Part shown: one piece after another, positions 31,592-57,931 of the stretch | Layout: every line of letters begins with the position of its first letter | How positions within the stretch are numbered: position 1 is the first letter of the stretch | Assembly: GCA_017480495.1 (NCBI GenBank) | Contig: JAFVAQ010000029.1 | Location: 1 to 64,000 of the forward strand | Source of the DNA: Eubacterium sp. | GTDB lineage: Bacteria; Bacillota; Clostridia; Lachnospirales; Lachnospiraceae | DNA: 64,000 nt | Direction of reading: 5' to 3' | Made by a program: the position numbers and the translations under genes | Notes under the pieces: generated by a model | Seen by the model: the letters and a program-made list of their open reading frames with translations, nothing else | The model's database searches: none | Told to the model about the DNA's origin: nothing

Positions 31592-31628
31592 AATAAAAGC
31601 CATCTGGGCAAACATTTACCCAGACGGC
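31592..31628 (-). terminator. Riboswitch terminator hairpin
   Basis: On the minus strand GCCGTCTGGG (31619-31628) pairs with CCCAGATGGC (31599-31608) over a 10-base loop, then TTTTATT. The left arm is also the conserved 3' half of the ZTP aptamer, so ligand binding and termination are mutually exclusive. Confidence 0.85.
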
Positions 31629-31694
31629 CGGTTTTTCATCTATATACTGTGCTTCCCGTGGTAAACTCCACTCAAATCCGTCAGTCACACAGCT
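31619..31694 (-). ncRNA. ZTP (pfl) riboswitch controlling purO
   Basis: Minus-strand sequence matches the pfl/ZTP consensus in order: a P1 strand CTGTG, then GTGACTGACGG, GTGGAGTTTACCACGGGAAGC, the closing CACAG, a linker, and the pseudoknot-forming CCGGCCGTCTGGGTA. These correspond to the known GUGACUGRCG, GUGGAAUCACCACGGGGAGC and CCGCCUGGGCA elements. It begins at or just after the predicted transcription start and is followed by the terminator that competes for its 3' half. Established behaviour of the class: ZTP/ZMP binding prevents termination and turns on folate or purine genes. It should raise purO expression when AICAR-related nucleotides build up. Confidence 0.9.
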
Positions 31695-31701
31695 ACAATC
31701 T

Positions 31702-44673: not shown

Positions 44674-47600
44674 TTAATTTACTTCGTAGAAGCCCTTTGC
44701 CATTCTCTGTTCAAAGTCTTCGACAGGAAGTGGTCTATCAAAGAGGAAGCCCTGAGCATAGAAGCAATTATTTTTTCTAAGAATTTCAAGCTGTCTCTCA
44801 TTTTCTACACCCTCAACTATACAGTCAATACCCATTTCATTAACCATAGCTATAACATTTCTAAACATTATGCTATTAATGCTGGTAGGTGTGTCATCCT
44901 CTGTAGGAAGGAAGCTCTTATCCACTTTCAGCACATTCCATGGGAGTTCACGAATAAGATTCAGTGAAGAATAACCCATACCGAAATCATCCACGGAAGT
45001 GTAGATGCCCACGCTTTGAAGTCCATTAACGACTCTCTTTATATCAGCAAAGCTCACGTCTGTTGTTGTTTCTGTAAGCTCGACCTCTATACAGCTATGT
45101 GGAATATTATGCCTATCTATAATCTTGAGAAGTGCATCCACAAGACTACTGTTATGCATATGCTTACGCGACAGATTGACAGATATACGAATAGCTGTCA
45201 TACCCTGATCCAGCCATCTTCTGATATCTCTACATACATGATCAAACATATAGAAATCAAGCGTACAGATATCATCGGTTTCTTCCAGCATTGGGATGAA
45301 GTCCCCTGGACTGATCATCTTTCCTTCATGGAACCAGCGGCAGAGCGCCTCCGCTCCAATTATCCTACCAGTTTCAGTATGAACCTTTGGCTGATAATAT
45401 ACTTTGAATTCTTCATTCCTAATTGCCTCTGGGAACATTCTCTGAACATTCATAGATTGTTCTCTATTTGCAACTAAGGAATCATCAAAGAATACTACTT
45501 TCTCATTTCCACCAGCTTTGGCATTAAAGAAGGCTATCGTTGTCTTTTCCAGGATAATTCCCGGATCTTGCAGTTTTTCATTCTTAGGCAAACGATACAC
45601 TCCAACTGTACAGCTAATATTAACTGACTTTCCATTTTTAGAATCATATATTACTGGCGTTTCTCTTAGATAGGTAAAAACATTTCCCATCTTCTGGTAT
45701 CCAAAGATAGCCATAAAATTATCTCCGCCCAGACGAACCAGTTTACCGTCCTTGCCAATAATCTCCTTGAGTCCCTCATAGTGGCGTCTAATAACCTTAT
45801 CACCCATAACTCGCCCAAGTTCCTGATTGACAAGAATAAAATGTAATAGATTGTATCTAATAGCTATCATGCCATTTAGACGGTCTCTATTCTGCATTAA
45901 ATAGCTCATATAATTTCTCTGATTTTCATATCCAAAATCATCAAAATAAGCCAGTTCATAAACCATGTCCTTTAGTCTGTTTCTTGTCACATAGCTAAGA
46001 ACCGTTCTCATAGTGAGTCCAACGTACCATTTTTCTTCTTCGGCAAGAGGCGTCTCATCCTTAGACATATAGACTCTCATAACACCAATTGACATCACGC
46101 TCGTAACAACTCTGAAGCTTATTATCTCTTCACCATCCACACCTGTATCATAACAACTAAGCGTTTCTCCAATTCCCTGAGCCTCGTCTTTTGGATTTTT
46201 ATAAAGTCTGGTTACCGCCTTGGAGAGCCTGAACATACTACAGATTTCTACAAGTATATTCTCTATCTCCGGAGTTTTTGCCTCTATACTAGCCTTGAAA
46301 TCTGTCATAAGTGAAACGAGCTTTATAAAAAGCTCATAAAATCTCGTCTTTTGATCATCACTTTGTGTAGTTAAGAATCTATCCGCCTTTGTGGTATCAC
46401 TTTTATCTAGAAGGGCTCTAAGCGACTTCTTGTTGACAATCATCGCCTTCTGAGCACGTTCATAAACATCCTGAACCTTCATATCTCTATCTGGCTTATA
46501 TTCAGAGATTCCGTAGGCTACGGTAGCTTTCGCATTATCTTTGTTAAAGAGCTGCTGAGCCACCAGCTTATCTATATAGCTACCCCTGTCCTCATACTTG
46601 TCCTCCATCAGGATAATACAGAATTCATCTCCGCCAACCCTATATATATCCACATCGGTGAAAACACTTTTTAGCAGATCCGCTGCTTCATTTATATAAT
46701 TATCTCCCGCTTTTATTCCCCGCTTATCATTAATATCGCGGAGCCCATTTATATCACAAACAACTACAGCAAATTTCAAATTTTTTTCTTCATATATTGC
46801 ATTATCTATTCTCATTTCATTTTGAACATAGAAATGCTTATTATAGAGTCCTGTTAGCGGATCACGATTTGATAGATTAACCCCTCCACCAAATTTTTGT
46901 TCAAATTCAAGTTCCTTACGTTTTGCGAAATCAATATTTGCAACAGCAATAATGATATGGTTTGAATCCATCATAGGACGAACTGCAAATAGCGCCATAT
47001 AGAGAGGTTCACCATCAATGATAAGTCTATAGCTAAGAAAAAGCTTGCCGCTCTCTTCGAGATTCTTCATAAGCTTCGTCTTATCCATAGCAACAGACAT
47101 CATATGCAAATCGTCTGGATGAATCTCATTTCTCATTCTATTCTGAGTATCAATGAAGAAATCTTTTCCTTTTCCACCCTCTTCAAGCTTTGTGAGATCC
47201 TTCGAAGAAAAATACTCCGTGTATTCATTTGTTTCAACATCAACACAGTAGATTACCTCGTAACGTTGAGCCAGAGCAATTGCCACTTCATTAAACAGCT
47301 GGCTATCAGGCAATACGCTAGCTTCATTTCTAGCCTGTGTGTCCACATTACGCACAGCAATAACAAGATGCTCTTCATCTGTTCCTTGCTTTATCGCAAA
47401 TAAACTGACATATCTCATCTCGTCATTTACCATTTGTCTATATACTGTGGAATAACTATTTGAAGTTTTAAGGGTATTAAGAAGATTGGTTCGCTCCAAT
47501 TCGAAGAGAAGCATTTCTCTATCTTCAGGATATATATGCTTCTCTATATCAGTTTGGAGATTAAGAAAGAAATCATCTCCTTCTTCACCCATGTTAAGAT

Positions 47601-48138
47601 TGGAGAAATACTCACTGGAATAGTACTCTATATAATGTCCCGTCTGAATATCTATGTAATAGATAACCTCAAACATACTGCCTAGGGACTTTGCAATTTC
47701 AGCATAAATAGTATTCTTCTCATTATCTTTCTGCTGACGACGAACAACATTATCGATATTTTGAACACCGATTACAATATCCCCATTGCTCATCATCATT
47801 GATTTCAGAGAGAAATAGATAGGCTTATTATCAATATTCAGTCTATATCTAAGACCAAAGGAATCACCATTTTCCAGAGCCTTGATTACATTTTCCTTCT
47901 TAAACGTCCTAAGAAAGAGGCTCTGGTCCTCTGGCCATACCATTTTCCTACAGTTGATTACAGTATCTGCATAGAAGTCATCTCCAGAAGAAACAATAAC
48001 CAGCTCTTTTTCCGCTCCTGATGCACTATATTCGACATAGCTGTCATCCTCTGATTTAATAAGATAGATACTCTCATAATCGTTTGCCAGAGCTGACGCC
48101 AAATCTGAAAACGTAGTTTTTACTCCATCATTCCCCAT
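44674..48138 (-). CDS. Cyclic di-GMP signalling protein: PAS-like x3, GGDEF, GAF-like, degenerate GGDEF, EAL
   Basis: 1154 aa, no membrane segment. Three related ~125-residue repeats (about 8-135, 142-268, 280-405) share Y/FE-x-IY-x-x-D, a conserved YRL/YRQ segment and the ending VQNID/VRNVD/VANID; they look like divergent PAS domains. GGDEF-1 (about 425-580) has an intact YRVGGDEFCIIL. Next is a GAF-like stretch, then a second GGDEF with RLGGDNFMAIF (degenerate), then an EAL domain (about 900-1150) with EALCRW, ISVNLS, EVELTET, VDDFGMGYSS, LKVDKSF and EGVENE. The phosphodiesterase residues look complete, so the protein may both make and break c-di-GMP. Confidence 0.9.
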   Translation of the reverse strand: MGNDGVKTTFSDLASALANDYESIYLIKSEDDSYVEYSASGAEKELVIVSSGDDFYADTVINCRKMVWPEDQSLFLRTFKKENVIKALENGDSFGLRYRLNIDNKPIYFSLKSMMMSNGDIVIGVQNIDNVVRRQQKDNEKNTIYAEIAKSLGSMFEVIYYIDIQTGHYIEYYSSEYFSNLNMGEEGDDFFLNLQTDIEKHIYPEDREMLLFELERTNLLNTLKTSNSYSTVYRQMVNDEMRYVSLFAIKQGTDEEHLVIAVRNVDTQARNEASVLPDSQLFNEVAIALAQRYEVIYCVDVETNEYTEYFSSKDLTKLEEGGKGKDFFIDTQNRMRNEIHPDDLHMMSVAMDKTKLMKNLEESGKLFLSYRLIIDGEPLYMALFAVRPMMDSNHIIIAVANIDFAKRKELEFEQKFGGGVNLSNRDPLTGLYNKHFYVQNEMRIDNAIYEEKNLKFAVVVCDINGLRDINDKRGIKAGDNYINEAADLLKSVFTDVDIYRVGGDEFCIILMEDKYEDRGSYIDKLVAQQLFNKDNAKATVAYGISEYKPDRDMKVQDVYERAQKAMIVNKKSLRALLDKSDTTKADRFLTTQSDDQKTRFYELFIKLVSLMTDFKASIEAKTPEIENILVEICSMFRLSKAVTRLYKNPKDEAQGIGETLSCYDTGVDGEEIISFRVVTSVMSIGVMRVYMSKDETPLAEEEKWYVGLTMRTVLSYVTRNRLKDMVYELAYFDDFGYENQRNYMSYLMQNRDRLNGMIAIRYNLLHFILVNQELGRVMGDKVIRRHYEGLKEIIGKDGKLVRLGGDNFMAIFGYQKMGNVFTYLRETPVIYDSKNGKSVNISCTVGVYRLPKNEKLQDPGIILEKTTIAFFNAKAGGNEKVVFFDDSLVANREQSMNVQRMFPEAIRNEEFKVYYQPKVHTETGRIIGAEALCRWFHEGKMISPGDFIPMLEETDDICTLDFYMFDHVCRDIRRWLDQGMTAIRISVNLSRKHMHNSSLVDALLKIIDRHNIPHSCIEVELTETTTDVSFADIKRVVNGLQSVGIYTSVDDFGMGYSSLNLIRELPWNVLKVDKSFLPTEDDTPTSINSIMFRNVIAMVNEMGIDCIVEGVENERQLEILRKNNCFYAQGFLFDRPLPVEDFEQRMAKGFYEVN

Positions 48139-48183: not shown

Positions 48184-48894
48184 TCAGCCTATATTACTAA
48201 CAATCCCGACTGATACATAATTATCTATAATTGCGGCAAGATCTGTTCCCTCAGTAGCTTCCCACTTTCTATGAACAGAGATCATAAAGCTCCTAACCCC
48301 ATCCTCTATGGTCTCTATATCATAATCATCGTGATAGAAATCATCTGTCGAAACAGCGCGGTCTCTCAGAACACCCTTACATTCCTCCAGCTTGCAATCC
48401 GGGAAGTTGATATTCCAGACCTTTCCAGCCCCCAGAGGCTTAGACATACACTCCACCATCAGTTCGTCTATATACCTCTTGACTACCTCTGAATTATCTG
48501 GATTCCCCTGTGAAAATGCTATGGACTGAACCCCATAGAAAATGCCTTCCATAGCTGCCCCAAGGGTACCAGAATATTGTATATCCCATGACATATTGAA
48601 GCCGGAATTAATGCCGGCAAAAACAAAGTCCGGTTTTTCAGGCAATAGCTTTATTATTCCAATCCTTACACAATCCGCAGGGGTACCGCTACATGTATAA
48701 GCCTTTACCCCCTCCATTTGAAAGTCATAATCCTTCACAAGTACCGGTTTATTAAAGGTAAAACAATGAGACATTGCGCTCCTCTGTCCATCTGGAGCAA
48801 CTATCCAAACCTCACCATGTTTTCTTGCCGTATCTGCCAGCAATCTAAGACCTGGCGCATCTATTCCGTCATCATTAGATATAAGTATTTTCAA
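48184..48894 (-). CDS. surE: 5'/3'-nucleotidase SurE
   Basis: Dephosphorylates nucleoside monophosphates. The metal site ILISNDDGIDAPGL is at residues 3-16, with VAPDGQRSAMSHC, GTPADCVRIG and SGFNMSWDIQYSGTLGAAMEG further on; all are SurE signatures. 236 aa is within range. The start codon is TTG (48892-48894), about 9 bases after GAGG, with TATAAT (complement of 48949-48954) in a palindrome TATAATT-TCC-AATTATA upstream. The EAL gene follows after 45 bases. Confidence 0.94.
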   Translation of the reverse strand: MKILISNDDGIDAPGLRLLADTARKHGEVWIVAPDGQRSAMSHCFTFNKPVLVKDYDFQMEGVKAYTCSGTPADCVRIGIIKLLPEKPDFVFAGINSGFNMSWDIQYSGTLGAAMEGIFYGVQSIAFSQGNPDNSEVVKRYIDELMVECMSKPLGAGKVWNINFPDCKLEECKGVLRDRAVSTDDFYHDDYDIETIEDGVRSFMISVHRKWEATEGTDLAAIIDNYVSVGIVSNIG

Positions 48895-52255: not shown

Positions 52256-52942
52256 ATGGAAGAAAGTGGAAGGAAACGTAACAATAAAGGTTTCTCACTT
52301 GTAGAACTGATAGTTGTTATCGCTATCATGTCAATACTTGCAATGGTAATAAGTATTGCCGTTATCCATTATATGGAGAAGGCTCGTCAGGCAAAGGACG
52401 TATACCACGCAAGTCTTATTAAGGATGCGCTTAATGTATATCCATTTGCCAGTGATTTTCAGGGAAGAGACGTTTGGTACGAAGATCCTGTAACTCACGA
52501 AAAGGAACATTTCAGAAGAGGCTGGGTATATGTTGACAAGGACGAGGTAAGATGTTCTGATGCAAGTTGCGCTCTTGCAATGATTTATGCCGGACTTGTA
52601 CATGTTAGCCCAGAAATGGAAGCAACACTTGCAGAACATGAAGAGAGTAATCCAGCATGGTTCCCAACTGGACCAGATGGAGACTACATTAGAAAATCAG
52701 ACATTAACGAATATGTATTTAAGAATGATATCACGGTTCACGCAAGAAGAACCTGGAATACATATCAGCTGGATGTATATGTAGACGATCAGGGCGAACT
52801 GCATCTCGGAGCCAGTGCCTCCAACGCCCAAAGAGTCGGCGGTCACGAAAAGGATGAGAAAACCGCAAGGCTCATGGCTCAAAAGCTCGGTTTCTATGAC
52901 GCAAAGATCACACCAATCGGTGAACAGTATACAGGAAAATAA
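52256..52942 (+). CDS. Type IV pilin-like (pseudopilin) protein
   Basis: 228 aa. Leader MEESGRKRNNKG, then the prepilin-peptidase cleavage motif G|FSLVELIVVIAIMSILAMV with Glu at +5, then a hydrophobic helix to about residue 43. The rest is an extracellular domain with two close cysteines (RCSDASCA, about 101-106), probably disulfide-bonded, and a C-terminal Lys/Thr-Gly end. AGGGAGG lies 9 bases before the ATG. It stands alone on the plus strand between minus-strand genes, with no pilus assembly ATPase or peptidase nearby, so it must use machinery encoded elsewhere. Confidence 0.88.
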   Translation: MEESGRKRNNKGFSLVELIVVIAIMSILAMVISIAVIHYMEKARQAKDVYHASLIKDALNVYPFASDFQGRDVWYEDPVTHEKEHFRRGWVYVDKDEVRCSDASCALAMIYAGLVHVSPEMEATLAEHEESNPAWFPTGPDGDYIRKSDINEYVFKNDITVHARRTWNTYQLDVYVDDQGELHLGASASNAQRVGGHEKDEKTARLMAQKLGFYDAKITPIGEQYTGK

Positions 52943-52962: not shown

Positions 52963-53008
52963 AAAAAATGTTGTCCTTTTACCTTATTGGTAAAGGACAA
53001 CATTTTTT
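52963..53008. terminator. Bidirectional terminator containing a stop codon
   Basis: Arms 52963-52983 and 52989-53008 (AAAAAATGTTGTCCTTT / AAAGGACAACATTTTTT) with a single bulge and 5-base loop. T tracts on both strands. The TAA of the minus-strand GTPase gene is the loop, and its last residues are encoded by one arm. Confidence 0.85.
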
Positions 53009-55653
53009 CTGCTCATTAAGTAGTCACTTTCGAGCTGAGAAGCCGTCATCATCTTCGAATTCTCACCTCTTATTATCAGCTGAATCATTCCATCTGAGGT
53101 GGCGACAGTTATATCAAGCTTCTTAGAATTCTCCACTGTAAATCTTTCTATGTACTGATCTGCAGTTTCCGCCTGTTTCGTATAAACCACGTGAACTCCC
53201 AGGTAATCCATTTTCTCCGTGAAATGCCCCCTCACATTATACGCATCGAAAACCACTATTATTTCAGTACCCTTAAGTGCCTTATATTCTGACATCATAT
53301 CAAGCAGCTTAAACCTGGCCGCCTCTAAATCCAGTGACTGTTTATCTTTTGAGGCATTTGCATCCGCCAGAAGGCTCTTCAGTTCCCTCCAGGCATGAAT
53401 AATATTATATCCATCTACTAGAAGGTATTTCTTTTTAGCTGAAGTTTCAGAAGTAGCCGCCTTCTTTGCCCCGCTTGCTCTATTCTCTGCCTGGACCGTA
53501 CTTTTACTGAGGTACACGCGCTTAGTCCTGCGGTTTTCCTTACCCGCATTTGAGTGAGTGGCACTTCTAAGGATATCATCTATCTCCTCTGTTCCAAGTG
53601 CTATATCTCTCTCCTCCGCGGTTCTAGTATGCACTCGTCTCAAGGCCTCTGCTTCTCTATTTATCCTATCCTCTTCACTTTCCTCATCTAGTTCAAAATA
53701 TTCAGACTCCTTAGATGGAAGATGCATAAGCTCCTCACATTCAAACCATGGCACATAGTAGCCCGCTCCATGATCTATAAATATACTTCCGGAAGGATTC
53801 TCTTTATCATTATCAGGATTATATCCCCTCTCCTCTATCACCGACTCGGCAATAGCTTCAGGTGCATCCTGGTATCCTGCAAACTTAAGCTCAATCTCAC
53901 CCTGCCCAGAGGTATACTCCGTCAACCTGGTCTGGTAATCCGCTATACATCTAGCAGGAGCATTTCCAACTAAGCCTGCCTCTGCATCCATTGAACAGCT
54001 TCCACCCATATCCGATATCTCAGTCATCACACGGCCAACACTCTCTGTAGGAAGAGTTATTCTAAAATCAAACATAGGTTCAAGCAGCACGCATCCCACC
54101 TTCATAAGGCCCTGCCTAATTGCGCGCCTTACCGACTCACAAAAGTCCTGACTATCTGTATGCTTTAAATGCGCCTTACCTGCGACCAGTGTAAATCTAA
54201 TATCTGTCAGCGCCGCCCCTGTAAGAATACCAACGGGCAAATGCTCTGTAATCGTGGAGAGAATGGTTTTCTGCCAATTTATATCCAGATCATTTACACT
54301 AAGATCACTGGCCACTTCAATACCTGTCCCACGAGGTAAAGGCTCCATCAGAATCTGCACCTCTGAATAGTGGCGAAGGGGTTCGAAATGTCCATATCCA
54401 ATAACAGGACTAGCAATAGTTTCCTTATAAACAAAGCTTCCCTTTGCGAAGTCAATTGGAACTCCATATTTTTCCAGGACTCTTTCTCTAAGTATTTCCA
54501 TCTGGAAGGAACCCATAACTGATATACTCGCCCTATCCTCTCCTATTATCTCCAGTTGTAGAAGAGGATCCTCATCGCAGAGTTCTCTTAATTTTGGAAG
54601 GAATACTCGAAGTGGAACATCTGTCGGAAGAACTACGTCATATCTCAACACCGGCTGACAGACCGGCGCATCGTCGTCAAACTCTTCGCCTAAACCCATT
54701 CCGGCAAATGTGTGTTCAAGTCCAAGAAAAGCAACTACATCTCCAGCTTCCGCCTTATCTACATTTACATACTTAACTCCGCTATAGCTTCTTATCTGAC
54801 TAATTTTCTCGCCAGCCAGTCGCGGGTCTTCTATCTCCCCTCTAACGGCTACACTTCCACCAGTTATCTTCGCATAGGAAAGCTTCTGTCCATTTTCGAA
54901 GCTCACCTTGAATATCTTAGCCGAAAAGGAATCCTTAAATGAAATCTCAGGCAGATATTCCGTTATCATCCTGATTAACTCGTCAACATTTTCATTTTTA
55001 AGAGCAGCACCAAAAACCACAGGATGAAACTTTCCAGAAGAAATGAGCGATGTCACATCCTCTTTACTTAGCTTCTCCTCTTCCAGGTACTTCTCTATCG
55101 TCACTTCAGATAATGCAGCAACCTCTTCCCACTTAGCGAAAATGTCCTCATACTTAATGAATCCCTCTCCAACCTTCTCTAATAGTTCAGAGAGAAGCTC
55201 TTCCTCAGTCCTTTCACACATGTCCATCTTATTAATGAACACCATATAAGGAATCTTATATTTTTTCAACATGCCTATAAGACGTTTCGTTGAAGCGGTC
55301 ACTCCATCTGGTCCACTAACCAAAAGAAGAGCCAAATCAAGCACTGACAGTGCTCTCTCTGCCTCACCTATAAAGTCCGCATGTCCAGGGGTATCTATAA
55401 GAGTTATCCTGATGCCATCACCACAATTATTTAGTTCATTATCCTTGTCAATATCGCAGAGCGCTTGCTTCGACAGAATAGTTACGCCTCTCTTCTTCTC
55501 CAGATTATCTGTATCCAGAAAGGCATCTCCATTATCAACTCTACCCGCATTTCTGATCATTCCCAGATTATATAAAATGCTTTCTGTAAGTGTTGTCTTT
55601 CCAGCATCAACATGGGCAAGAATACCCATCGTTATTTTCTTTAAACCACTCAT
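52984..55653 (-). CDS. TetM/EF-G-like ribosomal GTPase fused to a YacP/Rae1-like NYN nuclease domain
   Basis: 889 aa. The GTPase domain has G1 AHVDAGKTT (14-22), switch region RGVTI, G3 DTPGHADF and G4 NKMD, followed by EF-G-like domains II-V in TetM layout to about residue 640. An acidic linker follows, then a basic patch (RRTKRVYLSKS) and a NYN/PIN-like domain at 740-889. That domain has acidic residues D747 (LLVDGYN), D803 (VVFDAYN), D832 (ETADQYIERF) and D854 (ATSDGM), as in YacP/Rae1, a ribosome-associated endoribonuclease. Inference: a ribosome-directed factor that can also cut mRNA or rRNA. Real tetracycline protection is unproven. Downstream of a two-component pair, 36 bases after it. 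Confidence 0.9.
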   Translation of the reverse strand: MSGLKKITMGILAHVDAGKTTLTESILYNLGMIRNAGRVDNGDAFLDTDNLEKKRGVTILSKQALCDIDKDNELNNCGDGIRITLIDTPGHADFIGEAERALSVLDLALLLVSGPDGVTASTKRLIGMLKKYKIPYMVFINKMDMCERTEEELLSELLEKVGEGFIKYEDIFAKWEEVAALSEVTIEKYLEEEKLSKEDVTSLISSGKFHPVVFGAALKNENVDELIRMITEYLPEISFKDSFSAKIFKVSFENGQKLSYAKITGGSVAVRGEIEDPRLAGEKISQIRSYSGVKYVNVDKAEAGDVVAFLGLEHTFAGMGLGEEFDDDAPVCQPVLRYDVVLPTDVPLRVFLPKLRELCDEDPLLQLEIIGEDRASISVMGSFQMEILRERVLEKYGVPIDFAKGSFVYKETIASPVIGYGHFEPLRHYSEVQILMEPLPRGTGIEVASDLSVNDLDINWQKTILSTITEHLPVGILTGAALTDIRFTLVAGKAHLKHTDSQDFCESVRRAIRQGLMKVGCVLLEPMFDFRITLPTESVGRVMTEISDMGGSCSMDAEAGLVGNAPARCIADYQTRLTEYTSGQGEIELKFAGYQDAPEAIAESVIEERGYNPDNDKENPSGSIFIDHGAGYYVPWFECEELMHLPSKESEYFELDEESEEDRINREAEALRRVHTRTAEERDIALGTEEIDDILRSATHSNAGKENRRTKRVYLSKSTVQAENRASGAKKAATSETSAKKKYLLVDGYNIIHAWRELKSLLADANASKDKQSLDLEAARFKLLDMMSEYKALKGTEIIVVFDAYNVRGHFTEKMDYLGVHVVYTKQAETADQYIERFTVENSKKLDITVATSDGMIQLIIRGENSKMMTASQLESDYLMSRKNVVLYQ

Positions 55654-55689
55654 ATAAAATATCGTCCTTGATTACATTTCCCTTTGACT

Positions 55690-57075
55690 TTAGCTGATTG
55701 GAATCATAAGTGTAACCGAGAAACCTTTATCATCACTGTCACAGATTAGTTCTCCGTTCATTTTAAGCATAAGTGACTTTGCTATGTATAGTCCCAGACC
55801 ACTTCCATCCACTTTTTCATTTTCTGCCCTTTTACCACGATAGAACTTGTTGGTTATAAGCTCCAGCTCGTCACGTGGAACCCCTGGTCCATAATCCTTA
55901 ATAGACATCTCAAGGTATTTCTCTGAAACGCTATAATCAACATCTATCTTAGTTTCAGCATACTTATACGAATTACTGATGATATTCCCTATCACCTGAC
56001 TCATACGCTTGCTGTCAATATTAATAATCAGCTTTGGAAGCGTCGACTCATTAACCAGCCCCTTTGAATCATTTTTCTTAATTATCTCACTTAAAACACT
56101 AGAAGCCTCGTCATGTAAGCTTACCTTGAATTCGCCCAGATCCTCGAGGGTAGTCGAGAAGAGATCGCTTACCAGACTGTCTATCTGGTCAGCCTTCTTG
56201 TAAATGTTATCCAGCTTATCTAAGATATCTGTATCTCTCTCGAGCTCCAGTTCCTTAGTCGTACCCTCACCTAAAGCTTTTTTCTCAGGTTCTTCATTTA
56301 TATATTTATTAAGCTTAGCTTCGAGAAGCTCAGCCGTTAGCTTAATACCTGTTATGGGAGTTTTTAGATCGTGACTAAGAGAGGCTATAAGCTCTTTCTC
56401 CTTACGCTGAAGTTCTATCTCTCGCTGACGTGACTCAGCCAGTTCCTCTCGCATGATGTCGAAGCTTTCTGTAAATGCACCAAACATGTTATTTTCTTCC
56501 ATCATCAATGGTTCATCCAATTTTCCCTCTGCCACCTTACCTGCGAAGGTCTGCATTCTATCAAATGGCTTCACTATATTCTTCTCAATATATAAGCCAT
56601 ATATAACGGCACCTATTATGAAAAACAGTGCCATAATAGCCACGCCCATAACCAGTTTTCTTTTTATCCGAGCATAACCTTCCTCCGGTGTATCCAGCAG
56701 GACAACAGAGCCAACAATCCTTTCGTCCTTTATGACATATCTATAGATAAGCCTTTTTTTGCTGGCAACTTCAACTGTTAGTCTTCCCTTATTGTCAGTT
56801 ATTTCGTTGATTCTTTTTTCTGCACCGGGAGTTTTATACACCTCATTTCCCACGCTATCCAAAACAACAAAATCCACCCCATAGTCCTTTTCTTCAAGAC
56901 TATCGGGTGAATCCATCTTCTCTTCAGCATCCTTGACTATATCATTTAGTATAAGGAGTTTTTCATTATCCACTGCAATACTCTCACTTATATCACCAGA
57001 TACATTTACAAAAAGAATGATACCTGTGAGCATTAAAATGCCAAATACTAAAACAGCTTTTGCATAGTTCCTCAT
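55690..57075 (-). CDS. Sensor histidine kinase (HAMP, HisKA)
   Basis: 461 aa. TM1 is at about 6-26 and TM2 at about 140-160, with a ~115-residue extracellular loop. HAMP (IVKPFDRMQTFAGKVAEGKL) is followed by HisKA with SLSHDLKTPITGIKL (phospho-His) and HATPase with NIISNSYKYA, DYGPGVP and GSGLGLYIAKSLM. Its ATG overlaps the regulator's stop (ATGA). The GTPase/NYN gene follows after 36 bases, so the kinase may sense the condition that calls for it. An equally close ABC exporter unit lies upstream on the same strand. Confidence 0.93.
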   Translation of the reverse strand: MRNYAKAVLVFGILMLTGIILFVNVSGDISESIAVDNEKLLILNDIVKDAEEKMDSPDSLEEKDYGVDFVVLDSVGNEVYKTPGAEKRINEITDNKGRLTVEVASKKRLIYRYVIKDERIVGSVVLLDTPEEGYARIKRKLVMGVAIMALFFIIGAVIYGLYIEKNIVKPFDRMQTFAGKVAEGKLDEPLMMEENNMFGAFTESFDIMREELAESRQREIELQRKEKELIASLSHDLKTPITGIKLTAELLEAKLNKYINEEPEKKALGEGTTKELELERDTDILDKLDNIYKKADQIDSLVSDLFSTTLEDLGEFKVSLHDEASSVLSEIIKKNDSKGLVNESTLPKLIINIDSKRMSQVIGNIISNSYKYAETKIDVDYSVSEKYLEMSIKDYGPGVPRDELELITNKFYRGKRAENEKVDGSGLGLYIAKSLMLKMNGELICDSDDKGFSVTLMIPIS

Positions 57076-57824
57076 TTTAATACACTAAAATCCCTCTCAA
57101 TCATGTATCCAACGCCCCAAACAGTTTTTATAATCTGCGGATTCTTTGGATCATTTTCTATTTTTTCCCTTAAATGCCGAATGTGAACCGCCAGAGTTCC
57201 TTCCCCTATAAATTCATCATCCCATACATTCTTTAGAAGTTCATCCTTCGTAACAACGCGGTTTTGATTTTCAAGAAGATATATCAGCATTTTATATTCC
57301 ATAGCTTTAAGACCAAGCAATTCATTACCTTTCCTAAGCTTATGAAGATTTGTATCTACACTGATAGTATCTGTAAGACTTATACTGTCTGAATTTTCAT
57401 CTATCTTGTTTTGCTCTACACTACTTGTTTTTGATGCAAGCTCAGCATTCTCCTTCGCCTTCTCATATCTTGCAAGGATAGTCTTTACCTTAGCCAGAAG
57501 TATGCTGAGAGTATAAGGTTTCTTGATATAGTCATCACCACCGATATTCAGGGCGATTAGAACATCATCATCACTGGTTCTGGCACTAATAAAAAGTATC
57601 GGAACATCCGAGCTTTCCCTGACTTTTTTACAGAGTTCAAAACCGGACTTATCTCCAAGATTAATATCCAGAAGAAGCAGAGATACACTGTTCTCGTTCA
57701 AAAATTGGATGGCATCTTCAAAACTCGTCACATATGCAGTTTTAATGTCGAACATATTGAAGTACTCCGCAGTTGACTGGGCTATTACTTCATCATCGTC
57801 GATCATAAGAACCTTGTATTCCAT
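57072..57824 (-). CDS. OmpR-family response regulator
   Basis: 250 aa. Receiver with IDDDE, phospho-acceptor D53 (LLLDINLGDKSG) and YIKKPYT. An unusual ~35-residue polar linker (SKTSSVEQNKIDENSDSIS) comes before the winged-helix DNA-binding domain (EYKMLIYLLENQNRVVTKDEL, RHLREKIE, VWGVGYMIE). AGGTGG lies before the ATG. First gene of the RR-HK-GTPase unit; a palindrome at its start site suggests autoregulation. Confidence 0.94.
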   Translation of the reverse strand: MEYKVLMIDDDEVIAQSTAEYFNMFDIKTAYVTSFEDAIQFLNENSVSLLLLDINLGDKSGFELCKKVRESSDVPILFISARTSDDDVLIALNIGGDDYIKKPYTLSILLAKVKTILARYEKAKENAELASKTSSVEQNKIDENSDSISLTDTISVDTNLHKLRKGNELLGLKAMEYKMLIYLLENQNRVVTKDELLKNVWDDEFIGEGTLAVHIRHLREKIENDPKNPQIIKTVWGVGYMIERDFSVLK

Positions 57825-57887
57825 TTCACCACCTGCATTTTTTTATTTAATATGCTTTTCCTGCAAGCAGGAACGCAGTTTGACTTT

Positions 57888-57931
57888 TGACACTTATGTC
57901 ATATTATAGAATAATTCCAAATAGAGGACAA
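57888..57931 (-). promoter_or_regulatory. Promoter and palindromic operator of the RR-HK-GTPase operon
   Basis: Minus-strand TTGTCC (57926-57931), 17 bases, TATAAT (57903-57908). Directly after the -10 lies TGACA-TAAG-TGTCA (57888-57901), spanning the start site, with a further TGAC half-site 7 bases on. A dimeric regulator bound here would control initiation. Confidence 0.65.

Follow-up and report, generated by a model that had tools for sequence, protein, structure and literature searches.

Work on Bacillus describes Rae1 (YacP) as an endonuclease of the ribosomal A site (PMC6613710, PMC12320835) that acts in the A site or on translated mRNA (PMC6613710, PMC12320835, PMC10100781), and its cleavage has been mapped (PMC11780869). 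An efp mutant is suppressed by loss of Rae1 or of YacO, the RlmB homologue, and the two losses are non-additive (PMC6613710). A fusion of this type of nuclease to a translational GTPase is noted in ten Clostridiales species in one article, which files it under subfamily Tet, proposes resistance involving RNase activity, and names an rRNA RNase ability for testing (Atkinson 2015, PMC4342817). No other printed account of the fusion was found in an open-access literature search. Here we describe a member of this class in a stretch of 64,000 nucleotides from Eubacterium sp. of the Lachnospiraceae (contig JAFVAQ010000029.1, positions 1 to 64,000), which we call the window. Its gene encodes a GTPase related to elongation factor G (EF-G) and to Tet proteins, joined to a C-terminal NYN nuclease domain (Table 1).

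The fusion is real and widespread and, judging from sequence comparisons, looks functional. It is probably the lineage's Rae1, moved from a cysS-mrnC-rlmB-rae1-sigH gene order onto a distinct EF-G/Tet-like GTPase, and would cut mRNA on stalled ribosomes.

Domains and conserved residues of the fusion protein

A preliminary description of this DNA, made from its letters, had proposed a translational GTPase joined to a YacP/Rae1-type NYN domain, and both Pfam domains and solved relatives bear this out. A Pfam search of the protein, in line with the profile check suggested for residues 740–889, returned NYN_YacP with 133.7 bits (cut-off 24.6), and the solved B. subtilis YacP (5mq8/5mq9) matches the same domain with an E-value of 1e-16. 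The aspartates D747, D803, D832, and D854 align with D7, D53, D81, and D104 of B. subtilis YacP. We aligned the window protein with 71 fused relatives, 20 un-fused relatives, and four Tet-like comparators; the fused relatives include near-copies such as L032 and L033, and of loci L092–L131 only L105–L131 were aligned (L092–L104 repeat loci of L003–L031). Each of the four aspartates, called conserved-looking at the outset, is kept in 71/71 fused relatives. The NYN match covers profile positions 1–131 of 166, so the C-terminal tail is short in the window, whose protein lacks a full-length NYN with its tail.

The GTPase part contains GTP_EFTU, EFG_IV, and EFG_C together with conserved G-motif residues, which places it in the EF-G superfamily. 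Among 15 G-motif positions sampled, 12 are identical in 71/71 fused relatives (D16, G18, K19, T20, T21, D87, T88, G90, H91, N141, K142, and D144); H14 is found in 69 and R55 in 70 of them, and position 57 holds either I or V. The domain-IV motifs GHFEPLRHY and HxKHT occur in fused and un-fused members alike. H422, H428, H495, H498, and R510 are present in 71/71 fused and 20/20 un-fused proteins, K497 in 68 and 20, respectively, and H495 aligns with H573 of Thermus EF-G. Position 626 of the C-terminal extension is a cysteine in 54/71 fused relatives and has been lost in 17, the window's clade included.

The linker between GTPase and NYN spans 69–135 residues (median 83), is rich in charged residues, and has mostly low predicted confidence in AlphaFold. 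It contains a predicted helix whose pattern, EEIDxIL.RT, is matched at six or more of seven positions in 68/72 linkers and in 3% of shuffles, the pattern having been drawn from the same data. The 50 matches listed in a fold search with the weak AlphaFold model were EF-G-type structures, with a template modelling score (TM-score) of about 0.3 on the query, and gave no further information. Because a tether of this length could bring the NYN domain to much of the ribosome, reach is a weak test of function.

The label "TetM-type" from the preliminary description holds for the general kind of GTPase and fails for the subfamily. By sequence, the closest solved structures are TetO (E 1e-64) and TetM (E 1e-62), yet the window protein scores 363 bits on the NCBIfam Tet profile (NF012153), below the curated cut-off of 775, and its domain-IV tip is unlike that of Tet(M/O). 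Five other members, two fused and three un-fused, score 361–438 bits, all below the cut-off. The controls include a protein of the TetM/W/O/S family with 853 bits (L088) and the Tet-like proteins L089 (487) and L090 (533), both also below 775. The Tet(M/O) tip YSPVST is present in L088 and L091, both of the TetM/W/O/S family, and is different in the window. Histidines stand at positions 495 and 498 in the more distant comparators L089 and L090 too and therefore do not, by themselves, separate the family from Tet-like proteins. Membership of Tet was rejected because of the score and the motif at the tip, although the same two comparators likewise fall below the cut-off. TetB(P) was absent from the plasmid matches listed.

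Megaplasmids of L. salivarius carry relatives of the un-fused GTPase. One of them (L133 3968–5902, pMP118) is 42% identical to the un-fused L057. NCBI names these relatives "TetM/TetW/TetO/TetS family" ribosomal protection proteins, perhaps a misnomer.

Distribution of the fusion and the rlmB-sigH site

Our family survey took one genome from each of 150 genera of the window's family and counted as a fusion any NYN in a frame of at least 500 amino acids. The NYN is fused in 123, stands alone in nine (G007, G016, G020, G024, G029, G054, G059, G068, and G099), falls within a split gene or beside a contig end in three (G042, G095, and G128), and is absent from 15. The same 15 genomes also lack the family GTPase, their best matches (E 1.8e-20 to 1.1e-26) being EF-G background. 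An un-fused family GTPase accompanies the free NYN in five of the nine. Across the class, the NYN occurs in 189/291 genomes and the fusion in about 100/291 (counted by eye). Un-fused GTPases, in frames of about 640–700 amino acids, are found in several families, and genomes combining one with a free NYN include G217, G270, G294, G338, G359, G391, G397, G410, and G416. In a phylum sample, 43/398 genomes match at E 1e-45 or better, with about 23 fusions by eye, some of them beyond the class.

A fusion together with an intact free NYN was seen in none of the NYN-positive genomes (135 from the family and 189 from the class, two of them counted twice). Seven of these genomes have two NYN matches. 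The second match is a 46-residue, sub-cut-off stretch in G285, G350, and G390, a contig-edge fragment in G039, and a sub-cut-off edge piece in G076; the two matches in G130 are pieces of one gene, and G282 (61% complete) has two fusions. Two fusion genes appear as two frames, whether through error or real splitting: one (G140:C41 19732–22286) breaks at query residue 388 into two frames with a 4-base overlap, and the other (G042:C93 5567–8198) breaks between GTPase and NYN. A phage origin of the NYN was also considered: 12 phage records match, all of them unannotated.

Free NYN genes have a characteristic position: rlmB directly precedes them in 12/16 loci, mostly in the order cysS-mrnC-rlmB-NYN-sigH. 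At one such locus (L074), CysS, an RNase III-domain protein, RlmB, and SigH were verified; from its position, we take the RNase III-domain gene to be mrnC. A search for the RlmB substrate-binding family covered 16 genomes with the fusion, of which the window's own gave one weak match only. In 11 of the other 15, sigH comes next after rlmB, and no intact NYN lies between the two; in the remaining four, sigH was not found within the short stretch examined. A blastp search found no NYN beside rlmB in any of the 15. In G370 the fusion gene and the old rlmB-sigH site share a strand and are some 5 kb apart (L118 5783–13987); a NYN relic was sought in the rlmB-sigH gap of this genome and not found.

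Genus g184 holds both states. Its 11 genomes comprise seven with the fusion, three with an un-fused GTPase and a free NYN, and one in which a free NYN occurs and the GTPase search gives nothing at E 1e-45; fusion and intact free NYN occur together in 0/11. The fused genome G174 keeps a NYN remnant between rlmB and sigH (48% identity over residues 47–144 with six stops, and 62% over residues 124–168 with one stop). At the same site its relative G208 (sigH 96% identical) has an intact NYN, and no family GTPase. The shorter rlmB-sigH gap of the fused G350 showed no NYN. Compared with G127, from another family (that of the window), G174 shows 76% identity for the fusion, 54% for rlmB, 48% for mrnC, and 48% for sigH; compared with G350, from its own genus, the values are 74% for the fusion, 70% for rlmB, 78% for mrnC, and 89% for sigH. 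The guanine–cytosine fraction is 0.378 for the G174 fusion and 0.377 for the G127 copy; it is 0.297 in the upstream flank in G174 and 0.325 in its rlmB locus. The G174 fusion also falls outside a supported clade of four that consists of the G285 copy and, by nearest rows, those of G350, G824, and G825. No flanking genes were shared between the fused and un-fused genes of this genus in the stretches compared. The simplest reading of these comparisons is that G174 gained the fusion horizontally and that its native NYN gene then decayed.

A single branch separates fused from un-fused GTPases with full support (100 in the Shimodaira–Hasegawa-like approximate likelihood ratio test), so one change of state is enough. 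We favour the free NYN as the older state, to which the empty rlmB-sigH site and the remnant point.

Gene neighbourhood in the window and its relatives

The gene order first proposed for the window, response regulator (RR), histidine kinase (HK), and fusion, agrees with the gene calls, as do the 4-base RR/HK overlap (ATGA), the gap of 36 bases before the fusion gene, and its length. The closest named relatives of the window fusion, at 90–97% identity, are in Lachnospiraceae metagenome-assembled genomes (L032–L034). Neither rlmB nor sigH lies beside the fusion gene in the window, and the window's own assembly is 66% complete. A promoter-like site upstream of the RR gene is no evidence by itself, because the number of such sites in the region (24) is near shuffle level (19.2, standard deviation 4.9).

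Table 1. Coordinates of the fusion gene, its encoded domains, and neighbouring features in the window
Feature	Position	Strand	Basis or remark
Promoter-like site upstream of RR gene	57903–57931	minus	Consensus match only; within 57825–57931
RR (OmpR-type)	57072–57824	minus	Pfam Response_reg and Trans_reg_C; adjoins fusion gene in close relatives only
HK (sensor histidine kinase)	55690–57075	minus	Pfam HisKA and HATPase_c; adjoins fusion gene in close relatives only
Translational GTPase-NYN fusion gene, 889 amino acids	52984–55653	minus	Starts 36 bases past HK
GTPase (G) domain GTP_EFTU, residues 7–235	54949–55635	minus	Pfam, E 6e-50
EF-G domain IV (EFG_IV), residues 409–518	54100–54429	minus	Pfam
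Domain-IV tip loop, residues 492–505, signature G-x-x-H-x-K-H-T	54139–54180	minus	Alignment
EF-G domain V (EFG_C), residues 522–603	53845–54090	minus	Pfam
C-terminal extension, residues 604–646, terminal MH	53716–53844	minus	Common to fused and un-fused members
Predicted linker helix, residues ~685–700, contains EEIDDILRSAT	53554–53601	minus	Conserved
NYN_YacP nuclease domain, residues 744–882	53008–53424	minus	D747, D803, D832, D854

The upstream gene of the fusion was readable in 55 loci (51 plus L032–L034 and L050), two of which have no second upstream gene because it would lie beyond the contig. RR and HK precede the fusion in 3/55, namely L032–L034, whose identity to the window is 90% or more. 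The window's order and short gap are kept in L032 and L033, and a phosphoesterase gene stands between RR and HK in L034. An unrelated hybrid kinase (HisKA, HATPase, REC, and Hpt) lies six bases upstream of the fusion in L050; an RR-HK pair is found downstream in L106 and L123 and, on the other strand, upstream of the un-fused L060. As two-component genes are common, we give these scattered pairs no weight. Relatives at 70–78% identity have other genes upstream. The pair is thus absent upstream in 52/55 loci, and the survey proposed earlier to see whether it is conserved beside orthologues has a negative outcome. Control by RR-HK as a general feature was ruled out, the pair being confined to close relatives; it is a local neighbour outside the system.

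The gene for YlmH, described as a ribosome quality-control factor in B. subtilis (PMC11317155), is directly upstream of the fusion gene in three loci, with a 4-base overlap to a 3-base gap (L039 5206–5997, L041 2890–3642, and L092 4035–4775). It lies within two genes in 5/71 GTPase loci, and within 5 kb in 2/150 genomes of the family survey (coordinates by eye). This rarity rules YlmH out as a general partner and leaves a clade-local hint.

A pilin-like open reading frame, recognised by eye (GFSLVELIVVIAIMSILA start), converges on the fusion gene (window 52256–52942, plus strand); it is downstream of the fusion in L032–L034 and upstream, on the other strand, in L038. Elsewhere in the window are a ZMP/ZTP riboswitch above the Rfam gathering score (31611–31698, minus), a gene for a 1,154-amino acid protein with GGDEF and EAL domains (44674–48138, minus), and, adjoining it, a gene for a SurE protein (48184–48894, minus).

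Candidate mechanism, alternatives, and comparison with known systems

From these comparisons we infer ribosome binding, A-site cutting, GTP-driven delivery, and a role in rescue. In its GTP-bound form the protein would enter the factor site of ribosomes that have paused or stalled, where domain IV, whose tip has an EF-G-like histidine, may probe or clear the A site. The tethered NYN domain would then cut the mRNA on the ribosome, and GTP hydrolysis would release the factor. Such a cut would make the ribosome available for rescue and set off degradation of the message. The full account, a GTP-powered, mRNA-cutting translation factor that is carried by most sampled genera of the family and many other Clostridia and has taken the place of free Rae1, through horizontal transfer in at least one case, is put forward tentatively, at slightly under even confidence.

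Several observations weigh against this account. At most 41 residues follow the last aspartate in 30/66 fused proteins scored (six unscored), against 65–67 residues in 10/11 free NYNs scored (five unscored), and the C-terminal missense change R166P is counted as a loss-of-function allele of B. subtilis Rae1 (PMC6613710). The AlphaFold model is weak (predicted local distance difference test 63.5, predicted template modelling score 0.42). The order of events proposed above is provisional, because a Rae1 docked in the A site would have to contend with domain IV for the same space. Four of the nine free-NYN genomes of the family have no family GTPase, and six genomes of the class (G178, G183, G211, G227, G332, and G355) have an un-fused GTPase and no NYN match, so neither part needs the other. 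The fusion has no fixed neighbours, as no neighbour family occurs in more than four of 51 fused loci. Finally, the GTPase trees do not settle fusion versus fission: the root is unsure, with the Tet outgroup joining on the side of the un-fused members in one tree and nested among the fused members in the second. Resolution of the NYN tree is poor, and it requires three changes.

Three other explanations were weighed. The fusion might be one of convenience, placing two factors of the same pathway (for example, post-stall clearance and mRNA decay) in one chain to act sequentially, with no delivery. This would fit the long linker of mostly low predicted confidence and the finding of both parts as separate proteins within one genome (the five family genomes and 3/11 of genus g184); the conserved linker helix, with its pattern drawn from the same data, and the long retention of the fusion across many families make it unlikely. 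We regard as decidedly improbable that the protein is a Tet(M/O)-type factor protecting the ribosome from tetracycline or other ribosome-targeting drugs, to which the NYN adds an RNase resistance step, as proposed in Atkinson 2015. That article files the fusion with Tet, TetO and TetM are its closest solved structures, and un-fused plasmid kin in L. salivarius bear a Tet-family name at NCBI. Against these stand profile scores below the Tet cut-off, a limit that L089 and L090 also fail to reach, the replacement of YSPVST by a tip with H495 and H498 in every fused and un-fused member aligned, and a core-gene-like rather than scattered presence in 123/150 genera. The 2015 resistance reading is probably a misreading of the fusion.

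The preliminary description had the factor switched on by an outside signal through RR and HK. The compact order of the three genes in the window, L032, and L033 is what such a module would predict, yet with the pair missing upstream in nearly all readable loci, and other genes there already at 70–78% identity, this is hardly credible. That description had also allowed that the class may already be annotated, and so it is: NCBI names the Monoglobus fusion a "translation factor GTPase family protein," and the class was in print by 2015.

To our knowledge, it is an open question how a nuclease that cuts mRNA in the A site picks out the ribosomes to act on, and the wide retention of a fusion between such a nuclease and an EF-G-like GTPase suggests that a translation factor delivers it. 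This idea is testable with single-residue mutants of one protein, and in genus g184, where both states occur, nature has provided a replacement experiment. There is also a caution for annotation: labels of tetracycline resistance on core genes of this class, and on un-fused relatives like those in L. salivarius, may be poorly founded.

Compared with known systems, the protein shares with Rae1/YacP (5MQ8/5MQ9) the NYN_YacP family, the four aligned aspartates, and usually one copy per genome, the rlmB-sigH site of fused genomes being empty of an intact NYN. It differs in that the nuclease, a free protein in Bacillus, forms the C-terminal part of a GTPase in this family, and its tail is often shortened. 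Its likeness to Tet(M), Tet(O), and Tet(W) is that of an EF-G-like GTPase, with about 30% identity across the GTPase part, whereas it has another domain-IV tip, a sub-cut-off score, its own C-terminal extension, and a NYN domain, and is present in most genera of a family. With EF-G it has in common domains G, IV, and V and the tip histidine aligned with that of Thermus; it departs from EF-G in its family-specific GHFEPLRHY and HxKHT loops, its NYN domain, and a score far under the EF-G cut-off. The fusion of Atkinson 2015 belongs to the same class, and the passages of that article that concern it amount to a short note with a resistance proposal and contain no account of Rae1 replacement.

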